NCBI GenBank assembly: GCA_020445165.1
Contig: JAGRHE010000048.1
Coordinates: 1-15,255 of the forward strand
DNA: 15,255 nucleotides
Reading direction: 5' to 3'
Source: Gammaproteobacteria bacterium
GTDB lineage: Bacteria > Pseudomonadota > Gammaproteobacteria > Chromatiales > Sedimenticolaceae
In this document: positions 6,926-14,905 of the stretch, piece after piece
Layout of the letters: each line of letters opens with the position of its first letter
How positions within the stretch are numbered: position 1 is the stretch's first letter
Program-made: the position numbers and the translations under genes
The notes under the pieces: generated by a model
Database searches by the model: none
The model's input: the letters and a program-made list of their open reading frames with translations, nothing else
Told to the model about the DNA's origin: nothing

Positions 6926-7369
6926 CTGGCCGCAACAGCGGTACCGACCGGTTGAACCGTCATTCAAGCTAATAAGTAACTGCCGGACCAGACCGCCAAA
7001 AACCCTGCAGGTAGCTAATGCGCACTCCGGTCACATAAGCATGACGATTGATGCGCCTCACAATCTCAACCGCCGCGAAAACCGAAGCGCCCCACTCTCT
7101 TACCCCACAAACATCTAACCGACTGATTTGCGCAAGCCTTTGACTTCTTCCCGAAACTGAACGCCTTCGTTTCTCAGACTTTTGGAAGGCTAATCCTTTC
7201 AGCCACCGTCCCAGCAAAAGGTTAGGCCAGAAGTGTCGGCTGGAATGGTTTTTCTACGGAGTCAAGTAAGTGTGTACAAGAGCGGCTGCTGAATTCGCAG
7301 ACGGCTACGAGAATCACCTAACGCAGGATGAATTGATGGTTTCCCGCCTATACTCCCTAGCGGCGGTCA
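6926..7369. other. intergenic region without a recognisable gene
   Basis: This stretch is less GC-rich than its neighbours and lies between two convergent units. An 89-codon plus-strand frame (6849-7118) overlaps the previous stop, crosses the hairpins and shows no motif or ribosome site. The minus-strand frames are likewise unconvincing. Just past the stop of the TIR gene there is a weak stem, CCGCC / GGCGG, with a 13-base loop. Confidence 0.4.
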
Positions 7370-9076
7370 TCAGGGCAGTTTGTGGATTCTGTACTCCGGA
7401 GAGATTTTCCCAGGGCTAACGGCGAACACGCGTCCATCGCCGCTGATACCGGAACCTACGACACCCAGTCCTTCGATAACCTTCCCATGCTCTTGCATGA
7501 TGGAACCCACCTGCACCGAAGATGTTCGAACGTTCTCCTCGAATGAGCGCGAATTAGCGTAGCGGAGATCGACCGCGCGCCAAGCGTCGCCAGGTTCCTG
7601 CCAGGCGGCATAGATGGCCTTCTGGCTTCCATCGGCCGTATCGCTGAGTGGACTCGCCAGCAGCACGAGAACCGGGTCGACGCCTTCGATGCTATGGGAA
7701 TCGACAACCGCAATCAGCAACAGCGCAGCCTCGAGCGAATTTGCATTGCCGCGTTGCAGGACCTGGGAAGGAGGAGCGATGTACTGTCGCGGCATATCGG
7801 GAAAACGCACGGCATCCTCAAAGACGCGCACCTTTCCCCCCTCACCGAAGAGATCCCTGTAGCATGAGCCGATAGCATCGTCCTTTCTGAGCGGCACGCC
7901 CGCACCGTTCGGACTGCGGCACTGCCAGCCAAGCTCGGCAACCTCTTTGGGGGGCCTGATGGTCCACGCAGCGAGCGACGCAACTAGGTACTCTTTCTCA
8001 ACGGGCTCGCCGTCGCGCTTTTCCCCGGCCGGTCGCCTGAGATCCCAGGCGACCGTATAAGGTGGAACAATCTCGGTGATAATGCTGCCGACCTTGACCT
8101 GTGCCTGTTTCTCGTCCTCGACCGACCAGTGGATCTTGACCGGATACAGCATCTCCTTGGTTAAAAGCCGGAACTCCGGTTTGAAAGTCTGCTCAACCGG
8201 CTTGCCATCACTCGGCAGGCGAAGCGACAGCGAGTGAACGTCCATCTCGACATTCTCGGCGTCGTCGAAACGGACTTTGAGTCGTTTTGGATTGCCGCAG
8301 TCGTTAACGGCCGTCAACCTGAGCCAGTATGGAAAGTTCTCATGTCCAATCGAGTTGAGCAGGTAATGCGGTATCACATTTGGCGACAGCGCCTCGATCT
8401 TGACACAATCCCGCTCTCGCTCATGTAGCTCCGGCGCGATGGCCGCAGCAGTCAGAGGCGTGGTCTCCGAGAGCGGTGGCAAACTGACAGCAGGCTCCAT
8501 GCCTGGCGCCCAGATCATGATAGCGGCAACCACCGCGACCACTGTTATGGCAAGCATCGCCCAGTCGAGCGCTCGAAACCGGTGCTTCCTCGTCAAATGC
8601 CGGTGCACGACTGAAGGATGTACCGGCTTCCATTCCTTGTCAGCACGGAGGCGCGCGAGCAATTGCAACAGGCGCTCGGTCACCTCGTCCAGGTCGAGTT
8701 CATCGGAAATGACTAGACCCTGCTTCAGCTTCAATCCATAGAGGTTACCAGCCGCGCGCATTGCCGCTTGATCCAGGTAAAGCGGCACGACGACGTGACG
8801 TTCGCTTTTCGAGCGTCCCATCTCGATCGCCGAGCGTATCTCTTCGCGGACGTAATAGGATTCTTCGGCCTCGGCGGAAACCAGGATCACGCTGATCAGC
8901 GACGATTTCTGTGCCCGGACCAGCGCCAAGTCCCAATCATCGCCGAGTTCGATGCATTCGGCGTCGAGGAACACGCGCGCCTTGCCTTGTAGCCGGTCGT
9001 ACAAGTCGCGCGCGGTCTCCAACTCGTTCGATGGGTGTGCCAGAAAGAAGTCCCAGTCGAGGTGCTTGTCAGTCAT
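7370..9076 (-). CDS. transmembrane TIR-domain protein with large periplasmic domain
   Basis: The protein has 568 residues. Residues 6-145 form a TIR domain: WDFFLAHPSN, a VFLDAECIELGDDWD loop, SLISVILVSAEAEESYYVREEI, and VVVPLY. Glu79 in VREEI aligns with the helix glutamate that is catalytic in TIR NADases such as SARM1. A single helix at 172-190 (WAMLAITVVAVVAAIMIWA) follows a basic stretch (RKHRFR), predicting TIR inside and the C-terminus outside. The remaining 375 residues should be periplasmic. Within them, IAPPSQVLQRGNANSLEAALLLIAVV (433-458) resembles the core of a transglutaminase-like fold, but Ser447 stands where the catalytic Cys would be. The start overlaps the end of the upstream transglycosylase gene by 8 bases, so the two are almost certainly co-translated. 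TIR NADases act in phage defence; NAD cleavage by this one is inferred. Confidence 0.88.
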   Translation of the reverse strand: MTDKHLDWDFFLAHPSNELETARDLYDRLQGKARVFLDAECIELGDDWDLALVRAQKSSLISVILVSAEAEESYYVREEIRSAIEMGRSKSERHVVVPLYLDQAAMRAAGNLYGLKLKQGLVISDELDLDEVTERLLQLLARLRADKEWKPVHPSVVHRHLTRKHRFRALDWAMLAITVVAVVAAIMIWAPGMEPAVSLPPLSETTPLTAAAIAPELHERERDCVKIEALSPNVIPHYLLNSIGHENFPYWLRLTAVNDCGNPKRLKVRFDDAENVEMDVHSLSLRLPSDGKPVEQTFKPEFRLLTKEMLYPVKIHWSVEDEKQAQVKVGSIITEIVPPYTVAWDLRRPAGEKRDGEPVEKEYLVASLAAWTIRPPKEVAELGWQCRSPNGAGVPLRKDDAIGSCYRDLFGEGGKVRVFEDAVRFPDMPRQYIAPPSQVLQRGNANSLEAALLLIAVVDSHSIEGVDPVLVLLASPLSDTADGSQKAIYAAWQEPGDAWRAVDLRYANSRSFEENVRTSSVQVGSIMQEHGKVIEGLGVVGSGISGDGRVFAVSPGKISPEYRIHKLP

Positions 9077-11444
9077 TGCCGTGCACCCCGTCGTACAGAT
9101 CTATCGCGTCGGTGATCGCCACGTCCCGCATAATCCTGCGCGCAAAGTCACGCGCTTCCAGACCCCAGCTTTCCATCTCGCCACGGTCGATCTCGGGCAA
9201 GCGGAACGTCTCGATCATCAACTCGACGTCACCGAAACATCCCAGACGCGTCCAGCGATCGATCCAGGGCCGGACGCGATGATCTCCTGAATGATGCGCA
9301 AGAGCCGCCAACAGTATGTCGTTACCGAAATCGCGCAGCTTCTTCTCGCCGAACCAGCGCGCTCCCAGCGCAAGAGACTCATCCGCATCCAGCAGGTAAG
9401 CACGGCGGTCCCGGTGACCGCTGTTCGCCAGCAGTTGCCATTCTGCATCGGCCGCATTGAATGTGCTTTCGATGAACTGGAACAGACCCAATGCACCAGC
9501 AGGCGACATCGCCGCCGGATAAAAGAAACTTTCGTTACGCATCACGGCATACAGGATCTCGGGCATAACTCGGTAGCGCGATGCATAGTCCAAGAGTGCC
9601 CTTGGATAAACCTTTGGATAAGCCGCCCTCAGGTAGCCATCCTTTTCCATCAGCGTGGACAATCTGCCATGCGACGACCGGCTGACGCTGTGCACGAGGG
9701 TCATCGCCAATGGCCAGTCCGCGACCTCCTTGGCAACCCGCTCGCTCAGAGCCAGCGAAGCGTGCGGGTCATCCGTTGTATCAACCGCGGCAAGTGCGTC
9801 CTCTCGAATTGCAATCAATACGGCAATCCGCGTGAGCAGACCTTCTGCATCAAGTTCATTGGCCGTGAAATCCTCGATGCGTTTCGACGGTTGGACTGCA
9901 CGAAGTTGATCTTCTCCGGCCAGCGCATACCGATAAATGCCGAGACTAACCGCACCTTCAACACGCTGAATGTATCGGTTGGCGCTCTCATTCAGAGAGC
10001 GCGCGGGCACATGTTTCGCATAGGCGTCCTTGAGTTCGCGTCTTAGGCTTGCGTTCTGCGGCATCCGCTGCATCTTTGCAGACGGACCATCTGCGAGATG
10101 CATGCGGGCCCTTAACCCGTAGTAACCAAAAGGGTCATGCTTCGCCACTTCCTCGAATGCGGACTTTGCCTTTTGTGCGTGCTGTTGTGCCTCCATGATG
10201 CGTCCGTACCAGAACAACGCATCAGGCCGATATCTCGATTCCGGATTGTCTCTGGTGAACATCGCGAGCAGATCCGCCGCTCGGTCGAGGTCGCCACCTT
10301 CACTCCGTAGTATCAGGCCGATGGCCGGGAACATAACCGCCCTTGCCTGGTAGGTCTCCGATTGCGAGACCTGCATCAACTTTGCATACCAGGGCAGCGC
10401 CGCGTCGAGCCTGCCGACCATATGTTCACCACGGGCAAGCCAGTACAGCGCGTCGTCGACAAATGCGCCGTCCGGAAAGGCGTTGACGAGTTCGTGCAGA
10501 CTTTCCCGGTATGCCGCCTCGTCGGGTGCATGCAACAGGGCCTCCTGAAACATGGCCAGCGCGATCAGCGAATCTTTAGATGCGTAGCGTGCAATTTCCT
10601 TGTAAACGGCCGAGCGTGCATCGCTGTTGCGCGGAAACCGCAGGTGGCGGGCCAACAGGTACTTGGCCTCTAGGCCAACCTGCTCATCGCCGGATGCCGC
10701 CGCCTTTTCAAGGAGGGGTCGTGCCGACTGTTTGTCACCCAGCTGCGCCAAGCGGCGCCCCCTGGCAAGCGCGATACGATCCTCGGTCGCCAAGCCCTTG
10801 GCGATGACGAGTTCGTAGAGTCCTGATGTTTCGTCGGCAGGGCGGTCTTGCCTTAGCCGGGAAAGGTACTTGAGAAAATAGCTCGCGGCCTTGCCGTCCA
10901 AGCCAGAACGCTGCGCTTCCTTTGCCAGCGCGAGGAACAGCTCCTCTTCGAATAGAGGCAGACGTGGGAGGATGGGATGTGTCTCGAACACAGCGCGTGC
11001 GAGACGTCGTCGCAGCAACGTGTCGACAGCGTCGAACAGGCCAGCCATCTCTTCTGCACTGGACGTCTCAAGTCGCTTACTTACATCCAGCCATCGATAC
11101 AGTGCGAATGCGACAAAAGCGTTGTCACCCCAGGTATCCCGCTGACGGTCCGTAGCAGCAGTCTCGATTATCCGATGGTAGAGCGGCGCAGCTTCCGCCA
11201 GCATATCGGCCGCTCGCAGTGTCTCCGCTTTGAGGAACGTGAGCATCGGCCAGAGTGCTGCATCCTCGTCCGCGGTATCGAGTTTCTCGAGCAGGCCGCG
11301 AAATGTCTGCGTACCGTTGCGGTAAGCATTGGCATATGCCGCCGGTGTCAGGATCTGCTCGATCTCCTGTTGCGACAATCGATCGCTTGCAAGCACATCC
11401 AAGGTGCCAATCAACAAGCACAGCAGCCCACAAAAAAACTTCAT
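9069..11444 (-). CDS. exported TPR / Slt-type lytic transglycosylase
   Basis: The 791-residue protein starts with MKFFCGLLCLLIGTLDVLASD, a signal peptide. Residues from about 25 to 580 are a long TPR-like helical superhelix, for example ALYWLARGEHMVGRLDAALPWYAK and DALFWYGRIMEAQQHAQKAKSAFEEV. The C-terminus is an SLT domain with catalytic Glu638 in MRNESFFYP and the signature SPAGALGLFQFIESTF. Family members cleave peptidoglycan glycan strands to 1,6-anhydro-MurNAc ends in the periplasm. The usual A-Y-N-A-G motif reads LAHHSGDHRV here. The frame is open upstream to a TTG at 11609, but the ATG at 11444 puts the signal peptide at the N-terminus; its Shine-Dalgarno is weak. It overlaps the TIR gene by 8 bases and is longer than E. 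coli Slt70 (about 645 residues). Confidence 0.87.
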   Translation of the reverse strand: MKFFCGLLCLLIGTLDVLASDRLSQQEIEQILTPAAYANAYRNGTQTFRGLLEKLDTADEDAALWPMLTFLKAETLRAADMLAEAAPLYHRIIETAATDRQRDTWGDNAFVAFALYRWLDVSKRLETSSAEEMAGLFDAVDTLLRRRLARAVFETHPILPRLPLFEEELFLALAKEAQRSGLDGKAASYFLKYLSRLRQDRPADETSGLYELVIAKGLATEDRIALARGRRLAQLGDKQSARPLLEKAAASGDEQVGLEAKYLLARHLRFPRNSDARSAVYKEIARYASKDSLIALAMFQEALLHAPDEAAYRESLHELVNAFPDGAFVDDALYWLARGEHMVGRLDAALPWYAKLMQVSQSETYQARAVMFPAIGLILRSEGGDLDRAADLLAMFTRDNPESRYRPDALFWYGRIMEAQQHAQKAKSAFEEVAKHDPFGYYGLRARMHLADGPSAKMQRMPQNASLRRELKDAYAKHVPARSLNESANRYIQRVEGAVSLGIYRYALAGEDQLRAVQPSKRIEDFTANELDAEGLLTRIAVLIAIREDALAAVDTTDDPHASLALSERVAKEVADWPLAMTLVHSVSRSSHGRLSTLMEKDGYLRAAYPKVYPRALLDYASRYRVMPEILYAVMRNESFFYPAAMSPAGALGLFQFIESTFNAADAEWQLLANSGHRDRRAYLLDADESLALGARWFGEKKLRDFGNDILLAALAHHSGDHRVRPWIDRWTRLGCFGDVELMIETFRLPEIDRGEMESWGLEARDFARRIMRDVAITDAIDLYDGVHGND

Positions 11445-11910
11445 GAGGGCAAGCCGCGGGCGCCAGCGACGCTGGAGCGCGTCGCTAGGCGTCGCAACGC
11501 GCAGCGCAAGATCAGTTGCAATAATGCGGGTCAGACCAGATGATTCGACGACAGAACGCACACGACTTCCCAGTCTTGATTCGACTAAAAATTGATGGAT
11601 TACCGCCAACTGAAATGATAGGTCTACGCTAAAACGGTTTGTTTGATCTGCATCGCGATGACGGTGGGAGCCGAGCTACGCACGGGAGGTAGCGCCGGTG
11701 TCGACAATGCCGCCATTATTCGTCAGATCAACCCTGCACCAGCAACTGCAGCGTGGACAACCACCCAGGGAAAAGGCGAGGTAAGAAGTTCACTTGGGAA
11801 AGAACCCAGATCCGAACGATTCGCTCGTCAGCGGCTTCGATCTATATCGAATAGCACCTCTCAGCTCGTCGAACTATCGATTTCCCTGCGCCGGATCAAC
11901 CGCGAAACCC
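11445..11910. other. upstream region of the transglycosylase-TIR operon, no recognisable gene
   Basis: No convincing gene was seen. The transglycosylase frame stays open on the minus strand to 11609, and a 96-codon plus-strand frame (11643-11933) runs into the transposon end without a motif. A TATCAT that could serve as a -10 box for the minus-strand operon lies near 11625-11630, but no matching -35 box was found. Confidence 0.4.
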
Positions 11911-11926
11911 GGATCAGAGAACAATT
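11911..11926 (-). repeat. inverted end of RayT-type element 1 (downstream end)
   Basis: GGATCAGAGAACAATT here is the inverted copy, with one mismatch, of the 16-mer at 12523-12538. The two bracket the Y1 transposase relic, as expected for REP/RayT-associated element ends. Confidence 0.65.
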
Positions 11927-11929
11927 CAG

Positions 11930-12438
11930 CTAATCTTGCCGTTCGCTTCCTGTCGCGCCCAGGCGTCGGTACTCGTCGTGCAGGCAGAGCGTTTCGTCGA
12001 CCGCACCCCGGGCATTGGCGCCATAACTCGATCAGCGATACTTGCCCGGGTGATCGACCATCCCCGCCCGCACCGGGATGAGTTCGATGCACTCAGCAAA
12101 TAGCGTTCACTCTGGACCAAGCTGGCCTTGAAGCGTCCCTCCCACAAGGGCCCGCTGCGCCGGCATTCCCTGTTGACGTAGCGCACGTATCGCCGCCCAA
12201 CAGATTGCATGACCTCGGACAGCGCGTTTTCCCGGTCCGGCGTCATTAGCAGGTGGACATGGTTGGTCATCAGCACATGCGCGTGGATGCGGCCACCGAA
12301 CTTGTCGGCTGCGGCGCGCAAGGATTCGAGGTAGTAGAGATAGTCGCCTTCGGCGAAGAAGCAGGCTTGGCGATTGTTCCCACGCTGTACTACATGCTGG
12401 GGCACGCCGGGCAATTGAAATCGAGGTTTCCGTGACAT
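11930..12438 (-). pseudogene. Y1/IS200-like REP-associated transposase (RayT), frameshifted and truncated
   Basis: The first 115 codons from the ATG at 12438 are an intact Y1_Tnp N-terminus. They include PGVPQHVVQRGNNRQACFF, the HUH motif in LMTNHVHLL (His60, His62), the candidate nucleophile Tyr84 in VGRRYVRYVN, and GPLWEGRFKASL. Family members are single-strand DNA transposases or REP-processing enzymes. Near 12092 the homology jumps frame. The new frame reads CIELIPVRAGMVDHPGKYR, then a TGA (12034-12032) where the family has Trp, then SSYGANARGAVDETL and HDEYRRLG, ending at TAG 11932-11930. The usual C-terminal 60 or so residues (compare the fragment at 13205-13607) are missing, because the element end follows directly. 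Three independent lesions make it inactive. Confidence 0.88.
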
Positions 12439-12522
12439 CGTCTTCCCTGACGATTCGTCTCCAAATGCCGCCATGTTAATGGAAATCGTGCGCTGACCCG
12501 GATATCGCGCCCTATTGGCTAA

Positions 12523-12538
12523 AATTGTTCTCTGACCC
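12523..12538 (+). repeat. inverted end of RayT-type element 1 (upstream end)
   Basis: AATTGTTCTCTGACCC is the partner of the 16-mer at 11911-11926 (one mismatch, similar flanks). It lies about 85 bases upstream of the transposase start and defines an element of roughly 630 bp. Confidence 0.65.
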
Positions 12539-12570
12539 TGTTTTCACGGTTTTCAGAATTTTCTCTATCC

Positions 12571-13205
12571 TCAGGCCCTCAGCGGTAGCAAATCTTTCTC
12601 AAAAGATTCTTTGAACCGCTGCTGCATCTTTGGCGACTGGATTACCTGCTTACCATACTCGGAAATATTGTAGGTCACGGTGGTATCAGACCATTTCATG
12701 GCTAGCCCCAGGTGAGCCAAGTACAGTAATCCGTACCTTACTGCCCGTATCCATCCCCGCATTTCGGCATCGCTCATTTCTTCCTGCATACCAGCTGATT
12801 GAGCCATGGCTTTACCATAAAAGTCTGAAAGCACCCATTGATCATCCCGTTCCAGGCACCTGAGAATGAGGAAAAGGTCTGGTGTCAAGGTGTCTTGTGG
12901 AACGTTTTCCGACAAGCCCTGTATGGTTTCAATTACCCTGCGGGCATCTCGAGTCCAGAGTTCTTTCCCGGAAACTGCACAGGCAACTGCGCCTCTCGGA
13001 CCGCCGCCTCAGCGAGCGAGACAATCACCTGCTTACCCGCCCCCCAGAATGCACCCAGCTCGGCCATACACCACGCTGAGTCCACCGAGCATTTGGTTGC
13101 CAGAAACACGCAGGCCTCACAGGTACGGACCAGCTGATCAGCGAGCGATTGGCCGATCGCCATGACCTGAGGATCCCATCGCTTTATCCCGTTTCTGTCC
13201 AGGGA
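12571..13205 (-). pseudogene. TIR-domain gene (TIR_2 type), N-terminally truncated and frameshifted
   Basis: Two minus-strand frames join into one protein. The upstream frame, from about 13205 to 12968, reads WDPQVMAIGQSLADQLVRTC, EACVFLATKCSVDSAWCMAE and LGAFWGAGKQVIVSLAE. This matches the second half of a TIR domain, with Glu in the WCMAEL helix. At CCGGG (12965-12969) the frame would need one more G. After that shift it continues as GKELWTRDARRVIETIQGLS and then as SENVPQDTLTPDLFLILRCL, an uninterrupted 114-residue helical tail rich in charged residues ending at 12571. Read alone, the tail frame (12915-12571) could still start at its ATG. The first half of the TIR domain is lost where a RayT fragment abuts at about 13200. 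It is probably the remnant of an intact TIR effector. Function is unknown; most TIR proteins of this type are predicted NADases. Confidence 0.7.
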
Positions 13206-13607
13206 AAGGGAGGACTACATGCCAGGCTGCCATCGCTACATCGAGCTCAACCCGGTGCGCGCCGGGATGACCGAGCATCCGGCCGAGTACCGCTGGTCGA
13301 GCTAGGCGGCGAATGCCCAAACGGACACCAACCTGCTGCTGACGGCTCACCCGCTGTACCTGGCGCCCGCCCCAATCCCGAGTCTCGATGCGAGAAATAT
13401 CGCGAGCTGTTCAGGGCTGAACTCGATCCTGGGCTGGTCGACGAGATTCGCCTGGCTACAAACGGCAACTACGCACTTGGCAGTACCCGCTTCCAGGCGC
13501 AGGTCGAGCGGGCGCTGGGGCGACGTGCGACCAGGGGCACCTCGGGACGACCGTGTCATCCGGCCGGTTCTCGTGACCGAAGACCAAAACCGTGGTCTGT
13601 CCCCTAA
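13205..13607 (+). pseudogene. 3' remnant of a second Y1/RayT transposase
   Basis: The segment encodes the C-terminal half of a RayT protein in two frames. The first reads CHRYIELNPVRAGMTEHPAE and YRWSS, then a TAG (13303-13305) where the family has Tyr, then AANAQ. After a frame change near 13360-13385 the other frame gives CEKYRELFRAELDPGLVDEI, then RLATNGNYALGSTRFQAQVE and RALGRRATRGTSGRP. The reading frame closes at TAA 13605-13607, inside the terminal motif of the element. The N-terminal HUH and Tyr region is absent. The fragment abuts the TIR relic at its 5' side, so insertion or rearrangement here is the probable cause of that gene's truncation. Confidence 0.82.
13586..13606 (+). repeat. 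RayT-type element end, 21-bp motif, copy 1
   Basis: The motif contains GTGGTCTGTCCCCTA and closes the RayT remnant. Its inverted copy, with one mismatch over 21 bases, is at 15110-15130 on the far side of soxXA. Confidence 0.7.
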
Positions 13608-13646: not shown

Positions 13647-14423
13647 TCAATAACGTACGGCCGGCGTCTCTATCGGCAGGCCGTTGGAGCGGGCGCTCAG
13701 ATAGTATTCCAGCAACTTGATCTCTTCTGAATCGTCGGGAAAGGGCTCCGCCCGCATCAGGTCCAGGCACTGGGTGATGCGCAGGTTCAGGTTGGCCATT
13801 TCGCCGGTGCCCAGCCGATAGGCCGGAAAGCCGTTGGACTGCCCCTGCGAGATCTTCTGGCCACGCACGAACTGGCCGGCATAAACCGTGTGGCAGATAT
13901 GGCAGGACATGTCGATCAGGCCGTAGCGTGTCTCGTAGAGTGCCTCGCCGCGTTTGAGCAGCGCCTGGATCTCGGCACCTTCCGTCTGCACGTTCACTGG
14001 CACACCCTGCGCGCGGTTGCGCACGAAGGTCTCCAATGCCATCAGGTCGGGGTGGTTCACCGGCAGGGTGTCATCTGCGATCCTGCTGCGGCAGTCGCTG
14101 ATGCGGCGCTGAAGCGAGATGATTTCTTTCTTTTCTGCATCGTAGATCGGGTAGCTGGCGATCCGCTGCACGTCGAGTTTCTCACCGTCGTCGCCGTGAC
14201 ATTCGGCGCACGTCTTACCGCCCGCAGTAACAGGCGTGGTAAAAAGTTCGGCGCCCCTTTCCACCGCGATCAGTCCGGGGTTGGCGAATTCATCATCCTG
14301 CATGGCGCGGGTTTCGTCCTTGACGAAGGCATAGCCCGACAGTTTCTCGGCTGCAGCGTACTGGGCGAGGCTGGCGCCGAGCACGGCACAGATCATCATT
14401 GTTGTTATGCGCATCGTGATCAT
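13647..14423 (-). CDS. soxA: SoxA, dihaem c-type cytochrome of the thiosulfate-oxidising Sox system
   Basis: The 258-residue protein has a signal peptide (core MMICAVLGASLA, cleavage near YAAA-EK). Two haem-binding motifs are present, CAECH (72-76) and CHICH (174-178). Cys111 in RRISDC and Cys219 in LRITQC match the distal cysteine ligands; Cys219 is the active-site persulfide cysteine of SoxA. KISQGQSNGFPAYRL and the C-terminal SARSNGLPIETPAVRY are also typical. With SoxX it forms the periplasmic SoxAX complex, which oxidatively attaches thiosulfate to the SoxY cysteine. Both haem sites are kept, so this is the dihaem type. The ATG overlaps the soxX stop as ATGA (14423-14420), indicating coupled translation; a second ATG three codons on is possible. 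No soxYZ or soxB gene is in the window. Confidence 0.95.
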   Translation of the reverse strand: MITMRITTMMICAVLGASLAQYAAAEKLSGYAFVKDETRAMQDDEFANPGLIAVERGAELFTTPVTAGGKTCAECHGDDGEKLDVQRIASYPIYDAEKKEIISLQRRISDCRSRIADDTLPVNHPDLMALETFVRNRAQGVPVNVQTEGAEIQALLKRGEALYETRYGLIDMSCHICHTVYAGQFVRGQKISQGQSNGFPAYRLGTGEMANLNLRITQCLDLMRAEPFPDDSEEIKLLEYYLSARSNGLPIETPAVRY

Positions 14424-14905
14424 TTCATTGTCATCAAAAAGGCAATGACGTCCTCGACCTGCTGGGCCGTCAGAAAGGTGCGCCCCTCGAACATCTTCGC
14501 CGGGCGGTTGATTTTGGCTGGATCACGGTAGTAACCAGGCATGATCGATGCCGGGTTGAACGACTTGGTATCCACGACGCGCAAGCGGATGTAGCCCTCC
14601 GGATAGCGCCCGCCGATGCCCGCGAGTGACGGGCCGATCGTGCCGTAACCCTCGACATTGTCCAGCGGCATGACATGACATGCGACGCAGTTACCGCGAT
14701 TGCCGTCGGTGGCGATGGCGCGACCGCGCACCGGGTCACCGTGCAGTCCGCACAGCGGTTCGTTGATCGCCAGGTCCGTCTGCTGCCAGTGGCAGTAGGC
14801 TTCAGCAGGCAGGGGTTGGGAAGTTGCAGTGTCGGCGGCCGTGACGACGCCATTCAAGGCGAGGCCCAGGCTTGTCACGACGGTGAACTTGGCGGCTTTA
14901 CGCAT
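14420..14905 (-). CDS. soxX: SoxX, monohaem c-type cytochrome of the Sox system
   Basis: The 161-residue protein has a signal peptide (KAAKFTVVTSLGLALNGVV, cleavage near TAA-D). One haem-binding motif, CVACH (73-77), is followed by GTIGPSLAGIGGRY, and Met122 in ASIMPGYY is the expected axial ligand. The C-terminal helix LTAQQVEDVIAFLMT is typical of small class I cytochromes. SoxX receives electrons from SoxA in the periplasm during thiosulfate oxidation. Cys38 and Cys52, ahead of the haem motif, could form a disulfide. GGAG lies 5 bases before the ATG at 14905. It is the first gene of the soxXA operon. The upstream region carries three direct repeats that may be operator sites. Confidence 0.95.
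   Translation of the reverse strand: MRKAAKFTVVTSLGLALNGVVTAADTATSQPLPAEAYCHWQQTDLAINEPLCGLHGDPVRGRAIATDGNRGNCVACHVMPLDNVEGYGTIGPSLAGIGGRYPEGYIRLRVVDTKSFNPASIMPGYYRDPAKINRPAKMFEGRTFLTAQQVEDVIAFLMTMK

Follow-up and report, generated by a model that had tools for sequence, protein, structure and literature searches.

Organization of the gene pair

The DNA described here, referred to as the window, is the whole stretch of 15,255 nucleotides of contig JAGRHE010000048.1 (assembly GCA_020445165.1), assigned to a gammaproteobacterium of the Sedimenticolaceae. Two overlapping open reading frames (ORFs) lie on its minus strand at 11444–9069 and 9076–7370, the same coordinates as in a preliminary description of this DNA. 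The upstream ORF (9069..11444) encodes a lytic transglycosylase (LTG) of 791 residues with a signal-peptide-like N-terminus, a TPR superhelix, and a C-terminal SLT domain. The downstream ORF (7370..9076) encodes a protein of 568 residues composed of a TIR domain, a transmembrane (TM) helix, and an ectodomain. Read from the ATG at 11444, the LTG opens with the segment MKFFCGLLCLLIGTLDVLAS, which resembles a signal peptide by hydropathy and by eye, and TPRs were also found in it with Pfam. The LTG stop and the TIR-protein start overlap by 8 bp (9069..9076, minus strand; ATGACTGA); in the sequence ...GGCAATGACTGACAAG..., 8 bases are common to the ends that carry the stop codon TGA and the start codon ATG. 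The preliminary description had proposed both the TPR-SLT/TIR-TM-ectodomain architecture and the 8-base overlap. The former is confirmed by the Pfam domains, the hydropathy segment, and the presence of both ORFs, and the latter by the sequence itself.

Pairing of the ectodomain with the LTG in distant bacteria

A search with residues 190–568 against 5.8 billion proteins returned the protein itself and nine relatives, and three more (P0024, P0025, and P0026) came from a profile search (about 8,000 candidates were scored in each protein search). Scanning genome contigs revealed four loci, in Roseibium sp. (L001), a Roseibium metagenome-assembled genome (MAG) (L002), Geomonas paludis (L003), and a Gemmatimonadota MAG (L004), of which L003 supplied one further protein. 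The family thus comprises 14 ectodomain proteins including that of the window (13 others found).

In all four loci, whose hosts belong to Alphaproteobacteria, Geobacteraceae, and Gemmatimonadota, the gene immediately upstream, in the same orientation, encodes a TPR-SLT LTG. The spacer is about 3–37 bp, depending on the chosen starts, as compared with the 8-bp overlap in the window. Adjacency is therefore found in 5/5 cases with a known neighbor, window included; this count leaves out the neighbors of P0002–P0008, P0012–P0015, P0025, and P0026. The same gene order in 4/4 loci indicates pairing beyond chance, and the claim that the pair persists outside close relatives, which had been set in advance as a test, holds. 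The partnership proposed in the preliminary description was between the LTG and the TIR protein. The ectodomain stands as the constant partner, whereas the TIR domain does not: among the four distant loci only L004 carries one, and 8 of the 14 ectodomain proteins are TIR-bearing (that of the window, P0002, P0003, P0005, P0006 with two TIRs, P0008, P0024, and P0025). Both clades of the ectodomain contain TIR-bearing and TIR-less members, as expected of a replaceable effector.

The distribution of the pair is sporadic, and the ectodomain is very rare. In the genus of L001, the LTG profile (E up to 1e-20) and the ectodomain profile (E up to 1e-3) each match 2/45 genomes, which are the same genomes. 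In its class, the LTG profile (E up to 1e-30) and the ectodomain profile each match 1/385, again the same genome; ordinary SLTs drop out at these strict LTG thresholds. The ectodomain is found in 1/48 genomes of the family and 1/395 of the phylum of the L003 genome, and in 2/395 of the phylum of the L004 genome, the second match being weak (E 7.8e-4 over 73 positions) and not counted as a member. Apart from this weak one, all matches in the genome samples are the source genomes themselves. Since 2–5 candidates were scored per genome in the class- and phylum-wide searches, weak members may be missed.

Insertion of the pair at the Geomonas locus

In L003, the pair lies next to ligA within an inserted segment of about 4.2 kb that is absent from all nine relatives examined (L011–L019), the best-matching ones fetched; ligA itself was matched in 45/48 genomes. 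These relatives align with L003 up to 6961–6986 and resume from 11058–11194, and the part absent from them consists of the pair and short flanks. The spacer between the aligned blocks is 17–133 bp in seven of the nine, and about 0.7 kb of other sequence occupies it in L018 and L019. The alignments suggest that, here at least, the two genes have moved together. At L002, a clean empty site was sought and rejected: all seven relatives match only from 11,163–11,173 on, with the far side unmatched, and the GntR matches (25–33%) look like a paralogue and are therefore not counted as a clean site. At L001, 7/7 relatives match only downstream, and no clean site was found there.

TIR domain, membrane topology, and ectodomain

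The TIR domain spans residues 10–118 (8723..9049, minus strand; Pfam TIR_2, 5.8e-12), and its fold resembles NADase TIRs such as AbTir in a fold search. Glu79 (8840..8842, minus strand) is the putative catalytic residue. Its column, which we take to be that of the catalytic Glu of TIR domains, is Glu in 9/9 TIR domains of the family. Two TIR types occur in the family, about 20% identical to each other, and both keep the putative catalytic Glu. P0006 carries a tandem TIR pair (60% identical) followed by one TM helix and an ectodomain of the same family.

The TM helix comprises residues 172–190 (8507..8563, minus strand; mean Kyte-Doolittle value 2.43) and follows the positive-inside pattern. 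Five Lys or Arg residues are located in the 15 residues before the segment and none in the 15 after it, predicting an N-in/C-out topology, in which residues 191–568 (378 residues) would be outside. Across 13 ectodomain proteins (P0007 left out), Lys and Arg are more numerous before the best hydrophobic segment than after it in 11 and equal on both sides in two (P0026 and L003). The best segment is just moderately hydrophobic (1.37–1.49) in P0002, P0003, and P0008. A TIR domain at the N-terminus and a large part outside the membrane had both been put forward beforehand; the TIR fold with Glu79 in place bears out the first, and the charge asymmetry (5 versus 0) upholds the second as a prediction.

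The predicted periplasmic ectodomain (7373..8506, minus strand) shows a β-sandwich (residues ~224–345) and an α/β part (~346–568) in an AlphaFold2 model built with 14 sequences (pLDDT 78, pTM 0.59). Cys224, Cys260, Cys386, and Cys405 are invariant across all 10 rows of alignment A1. P0024 and P0025 lack them, and P0026 and L003 do not retain the complete set. Where conserved, the four Cys residues would suit an oxidizing periplasm. The 12 rows of alignment A3 gave no Pfam match for the ectodomain under E 0.07, and a profile search of PDB sequences gave none under E 0.3. By eye, the helix-strand-strand-strand order and the AW...W..D pattern of the C-terminal part suggested a dead transglutaminase core. 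The hhalign alignment to transglutaminase is in the register expected by eye, with a probability of 2.4% (E 0.019; 0.07% for the β-sandwich part as control). As this value is just 2.4%, a transglutaminase-like origin is not claimed.

Altered active-site motif of the LTG subfamily

The SLT catalytic domain covers LTG residues 620–729 (9258..9587, minus strand; Pfam SLT, 8.7e-16). Glu638 (9531..9533, minus strand) aligns with position 478 of Slt70, and Glu478 of Slt70 is named as catalytic in a passage of PMC550655. This column is Glu in the nine LTGs of the subfamily, five of which are known to adjoin an ectodomain gene, and in eight ordinary SLTs (P0016–P0023). In contrast, at the Tyr of the AYNxG motif (Slt70 position 552), all nine subfamily LTGs have His, whereas all eight ordinary SLTs have Tyr. 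In the window, this residue is His717 (9294..9296, minus strand). Thus, of the features that define the Slt family of GH23, the SLT domain with the catalytic Glu and the GxxQ motif are present and the AYNxG Tyr is replaced. Compared with soluble lytic transglycosylases of the Slt70 type (GH23, family 1), the subfamily differs in three respects: the invariant His for this Tyr, a Phe in the GLMQ motif (GLFQ or GVFQ), and the adjoining ectodomain gene in every case with a known neighbor.

Genomic neighborhoods

L001 (1–20700) is an accessory region of Roseibium in which primase, helicase, Imm11, DMP19, and DUF7677 genes surround the pair. Among the 10 neighbors scanned, an AbiD gene (PADLOC, 1.9e-71) is 0.7 kb from the pair, the primase, helicase, Imm11, and DMP19 genes being more distant, and the helicase at the edge also matched restriction-helicase models, probably generically. 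The neighbors at L002–L004, partly named by eye, are transporters, regulators, ligA, peroxiredoxin, sulfatase, and β-lactamase-fold genes.

The neighbors in the window include a winged-helix TPR regulator and an IS200-like transposase by Pfam. The transposase gene (Y1_Tnp; 11926–12474) lies within a 29-nt imperfect inverted repeat (11898–11926/12523–12551, 86% complementary), and the unit 11898–12551 presumably belongs to the REP-associated transposase type, which it resembles. An 80-nt inverted repeat (79%; 12010–12089/13239–13318) links the transposase with a stretch at 13.2 kb that appears by eye to be a second, broken transposase remnant, though not confirmed by Pfam. A fragment at 12936–13214 on the minus strand (TIR_2, 2e-4, under the gathering score) looks like a decayed second TIR gene. 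It is followed, in another frame, by a minus-strand ORF of 114 residues (12571–12915) that has a low GC content of 48.7% and no Pfam, NCBIfam, or PADLOC match. Further away, genes for a formaldehyde-activating enzyme (Fae, Pfam; 1612–2160) and SoxXA (NCBIfam; 13647–14905) place C1 and sulfur oxidation genes together in the window.

Comparison with known systems

AbTir, Thoeris ThsB, SPARTA TIR-APAZ, and SpbK are TIR NADases, among them proteins of bacterial defense, that are cytoplasmic and have intracellular triggers; to our knowledge, the known bacterial TIR systems read intracellular signals. Unlike these, the TIR domain in the window is linked by a TM helix to a domain predicted to be periplasmic, and the protein has an LTG as its partner. 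The models for Thoeris, SPARTA, CBASS-TIR, and retron-TIR match the TIR part only, and weakly: the best PADLOC E value is 0.0058, and the NCBIfam retron-TIR match (9e-06) scores 24.7 bits against a cut-off of 600 bits. No ThsA, Ago, cyclase, or reverse transcriptase was found among the window neighbors scanned with Pfam, NCBIfam, and PADLOC, a subset of the ORFs. The predicted arrangement is like that of animal Toll-like receptors in being single-pass with a domain outside and the TIR inside, which is a comparison of working principle only. In contrast to those receptors, the TIR is N-terminal, there is no leucine-rich repeat match, and the ectodomain has no shown sequence relation to theirs. 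Zorya is built on the envelope-anchored ZorAB, and we know of no protein common to Zorya and the LTG-ectodomain pair. The likeness would lie in the envelope-located logic of phage defense, as outlined in part of PMC11890865.

Among the matches listed from the open-license PMC literature, none was found that connects a TIR protein to a lytic transglycosylase in a defense context. Judging from titles and the starts of abstracts, the papers with both terms concern other subjects, and no such pair is described in the passages of PMC7075850, PMC7159879, PMC12419801, PMC5372988, and PMC550655 that were retrieved.

Discussion

The recurrence of the gene pair in unrelated bacteria suggests an envelope-alarm system that is rare and undescribed and may be directed against phages. 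We tentatively favor, with somewhat less than even confidence, a two-gene system for envelope surveillance, probably anti-phage, whose core is the LTG and the ectodomain and which has a TIR effector in some members. The sequences themselves show paired genes with a sporadic distribution, one clean insertion, conserved Glu residues, the His signature, and a predicted topology. We count in its favor the upstream LTGs at the four distant loci, the co-occurrence in the same genomes, the insertion and the sporadic distribution, the AbTir-like fold with Glu79 in 9/9 domains, the presence of both TIR-bearing and TIR-less members in each clade, AbiD, Imm11, and the primase and helicase at L001, and the decayed TIR fragment in the window.

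Such a compact system, moving horizontally, would monitor the cell envelope, with phage attack as the most likely target. Once exported, the LTG would bind and perhaps cut peptidoglycan through its altered active site and cooperate with the ectodomain of its partner in the inner membrane. The trigger may be a breached wall, or the LTG or its glycan product engaging the ectodomain, and the one TM helix would carry the signal across the membrane. Where TIR domains are present, they may then cluster in the cytoplasm and consume NAD+, leading to arrest or death of the cell. TIR-less members would have to respond in the periplasm, for example by releasing or anchoring the LTG, or act through a partner not seen here. 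We infer the physical complex, the signal or ligand, the NADase activity, and the anti-phage role.

Several observations weigh against this interpretation, which draws on sequence and prediction throughout. Five of the 14 ectodomain proteins (P0004, P0009, P0010, P0026, and L003) lack a TIR domain, and the TIR status of P0007, whose sequence starts in the TM region, is undecided. The ectodomain is not tied to any known ligand-binding fold, the fold searches being filled by TIR matches. A pattern scan of viral contigs found no relatives, and tblastn gave no match in phage or plasmid collections. With PADLOC, neither the LTG nor the ectodomain was matched convincingly, and three further window neighbors gave no match. 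The program found no clear defense gene among 17 scanned neighbors, a subset, at L002–L004, where the only hit to a candidate model was that of ligA, confined to the C-terminal residues 597–667. The preliminary description had suggested looking for the pair in defense islands. AbiD adjoins the pair at L001, and the neighbors scanned at the other three loci include no clear defense gene; as the general setting, defense islands are rejected on this subset of neighbors.

The pair may instead be an accessory unit for peptidoglycan remodeling, in which the LTG is tethered or controlled by the membrane protein, and any TIR present serves as a non-immune scaffold or metabolic signaling enzyme. Retention of the LTG by TIR-less members, the ordinary genes around three of the four distant loci, and the catalytic Glu638 kept in 9/9 LTGs agree with this. 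However, the very sporadic presence within a genus (2/45), the compact insertion, and the two attached TIR types are unusual for maintenance genes, and we regard the explanation as rather unlikely. Alternatively, the LTG could be a cell-damaging effector restrained, as in toxin-antitoxin pairs, by the membrane protein as inhibitor or immunity partner, with the TIR as an add-on second effector. The constant core of LTG and ectodomain with an optional TIR fits this idea, and the change at His717 points to an unusual enzyme that may be restrained. The LTG of the window, however, has an ordinary signal-peptide-like start, and in three LTGs scanned with Pfam no delivery domain was detected, which leaves this alternative improbable. 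A chance overlap of unrelated genes is a general possibility with nothing further in its favor, and the adjacency in the window and 4/4 distant loci, together with the co-occurrence in genomes of the searched samples, already contradicts it, making it very improbable.

Within the envelope-surveillance interpretation, a bolder version is conceivable but unlikely: the proteins might form a bacterial family of Toll-like transmembrane receptors, in which the Tyr-to-His LTG acts as a wall-reading co-receptor, the ectodomain relays the signal, and swappable TIRs burn NAD+ upon a wall breach, with another output in TIR-less members. More generally, if a conserved pair does connect a peptidoglycan enzyme outside the membrane with a TIR domain inside, bacteria too would use receptor-like TIR signaling across a membrane to monitor the wall, and the pair would offer a testable two-gene system for sensing phage entry or lysis at the envelope. 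Even with no immune role, the invariant Tyr-to-His change in the active site and the single membrane partner would represent an unusual control of a peptidoglycan enzyme.

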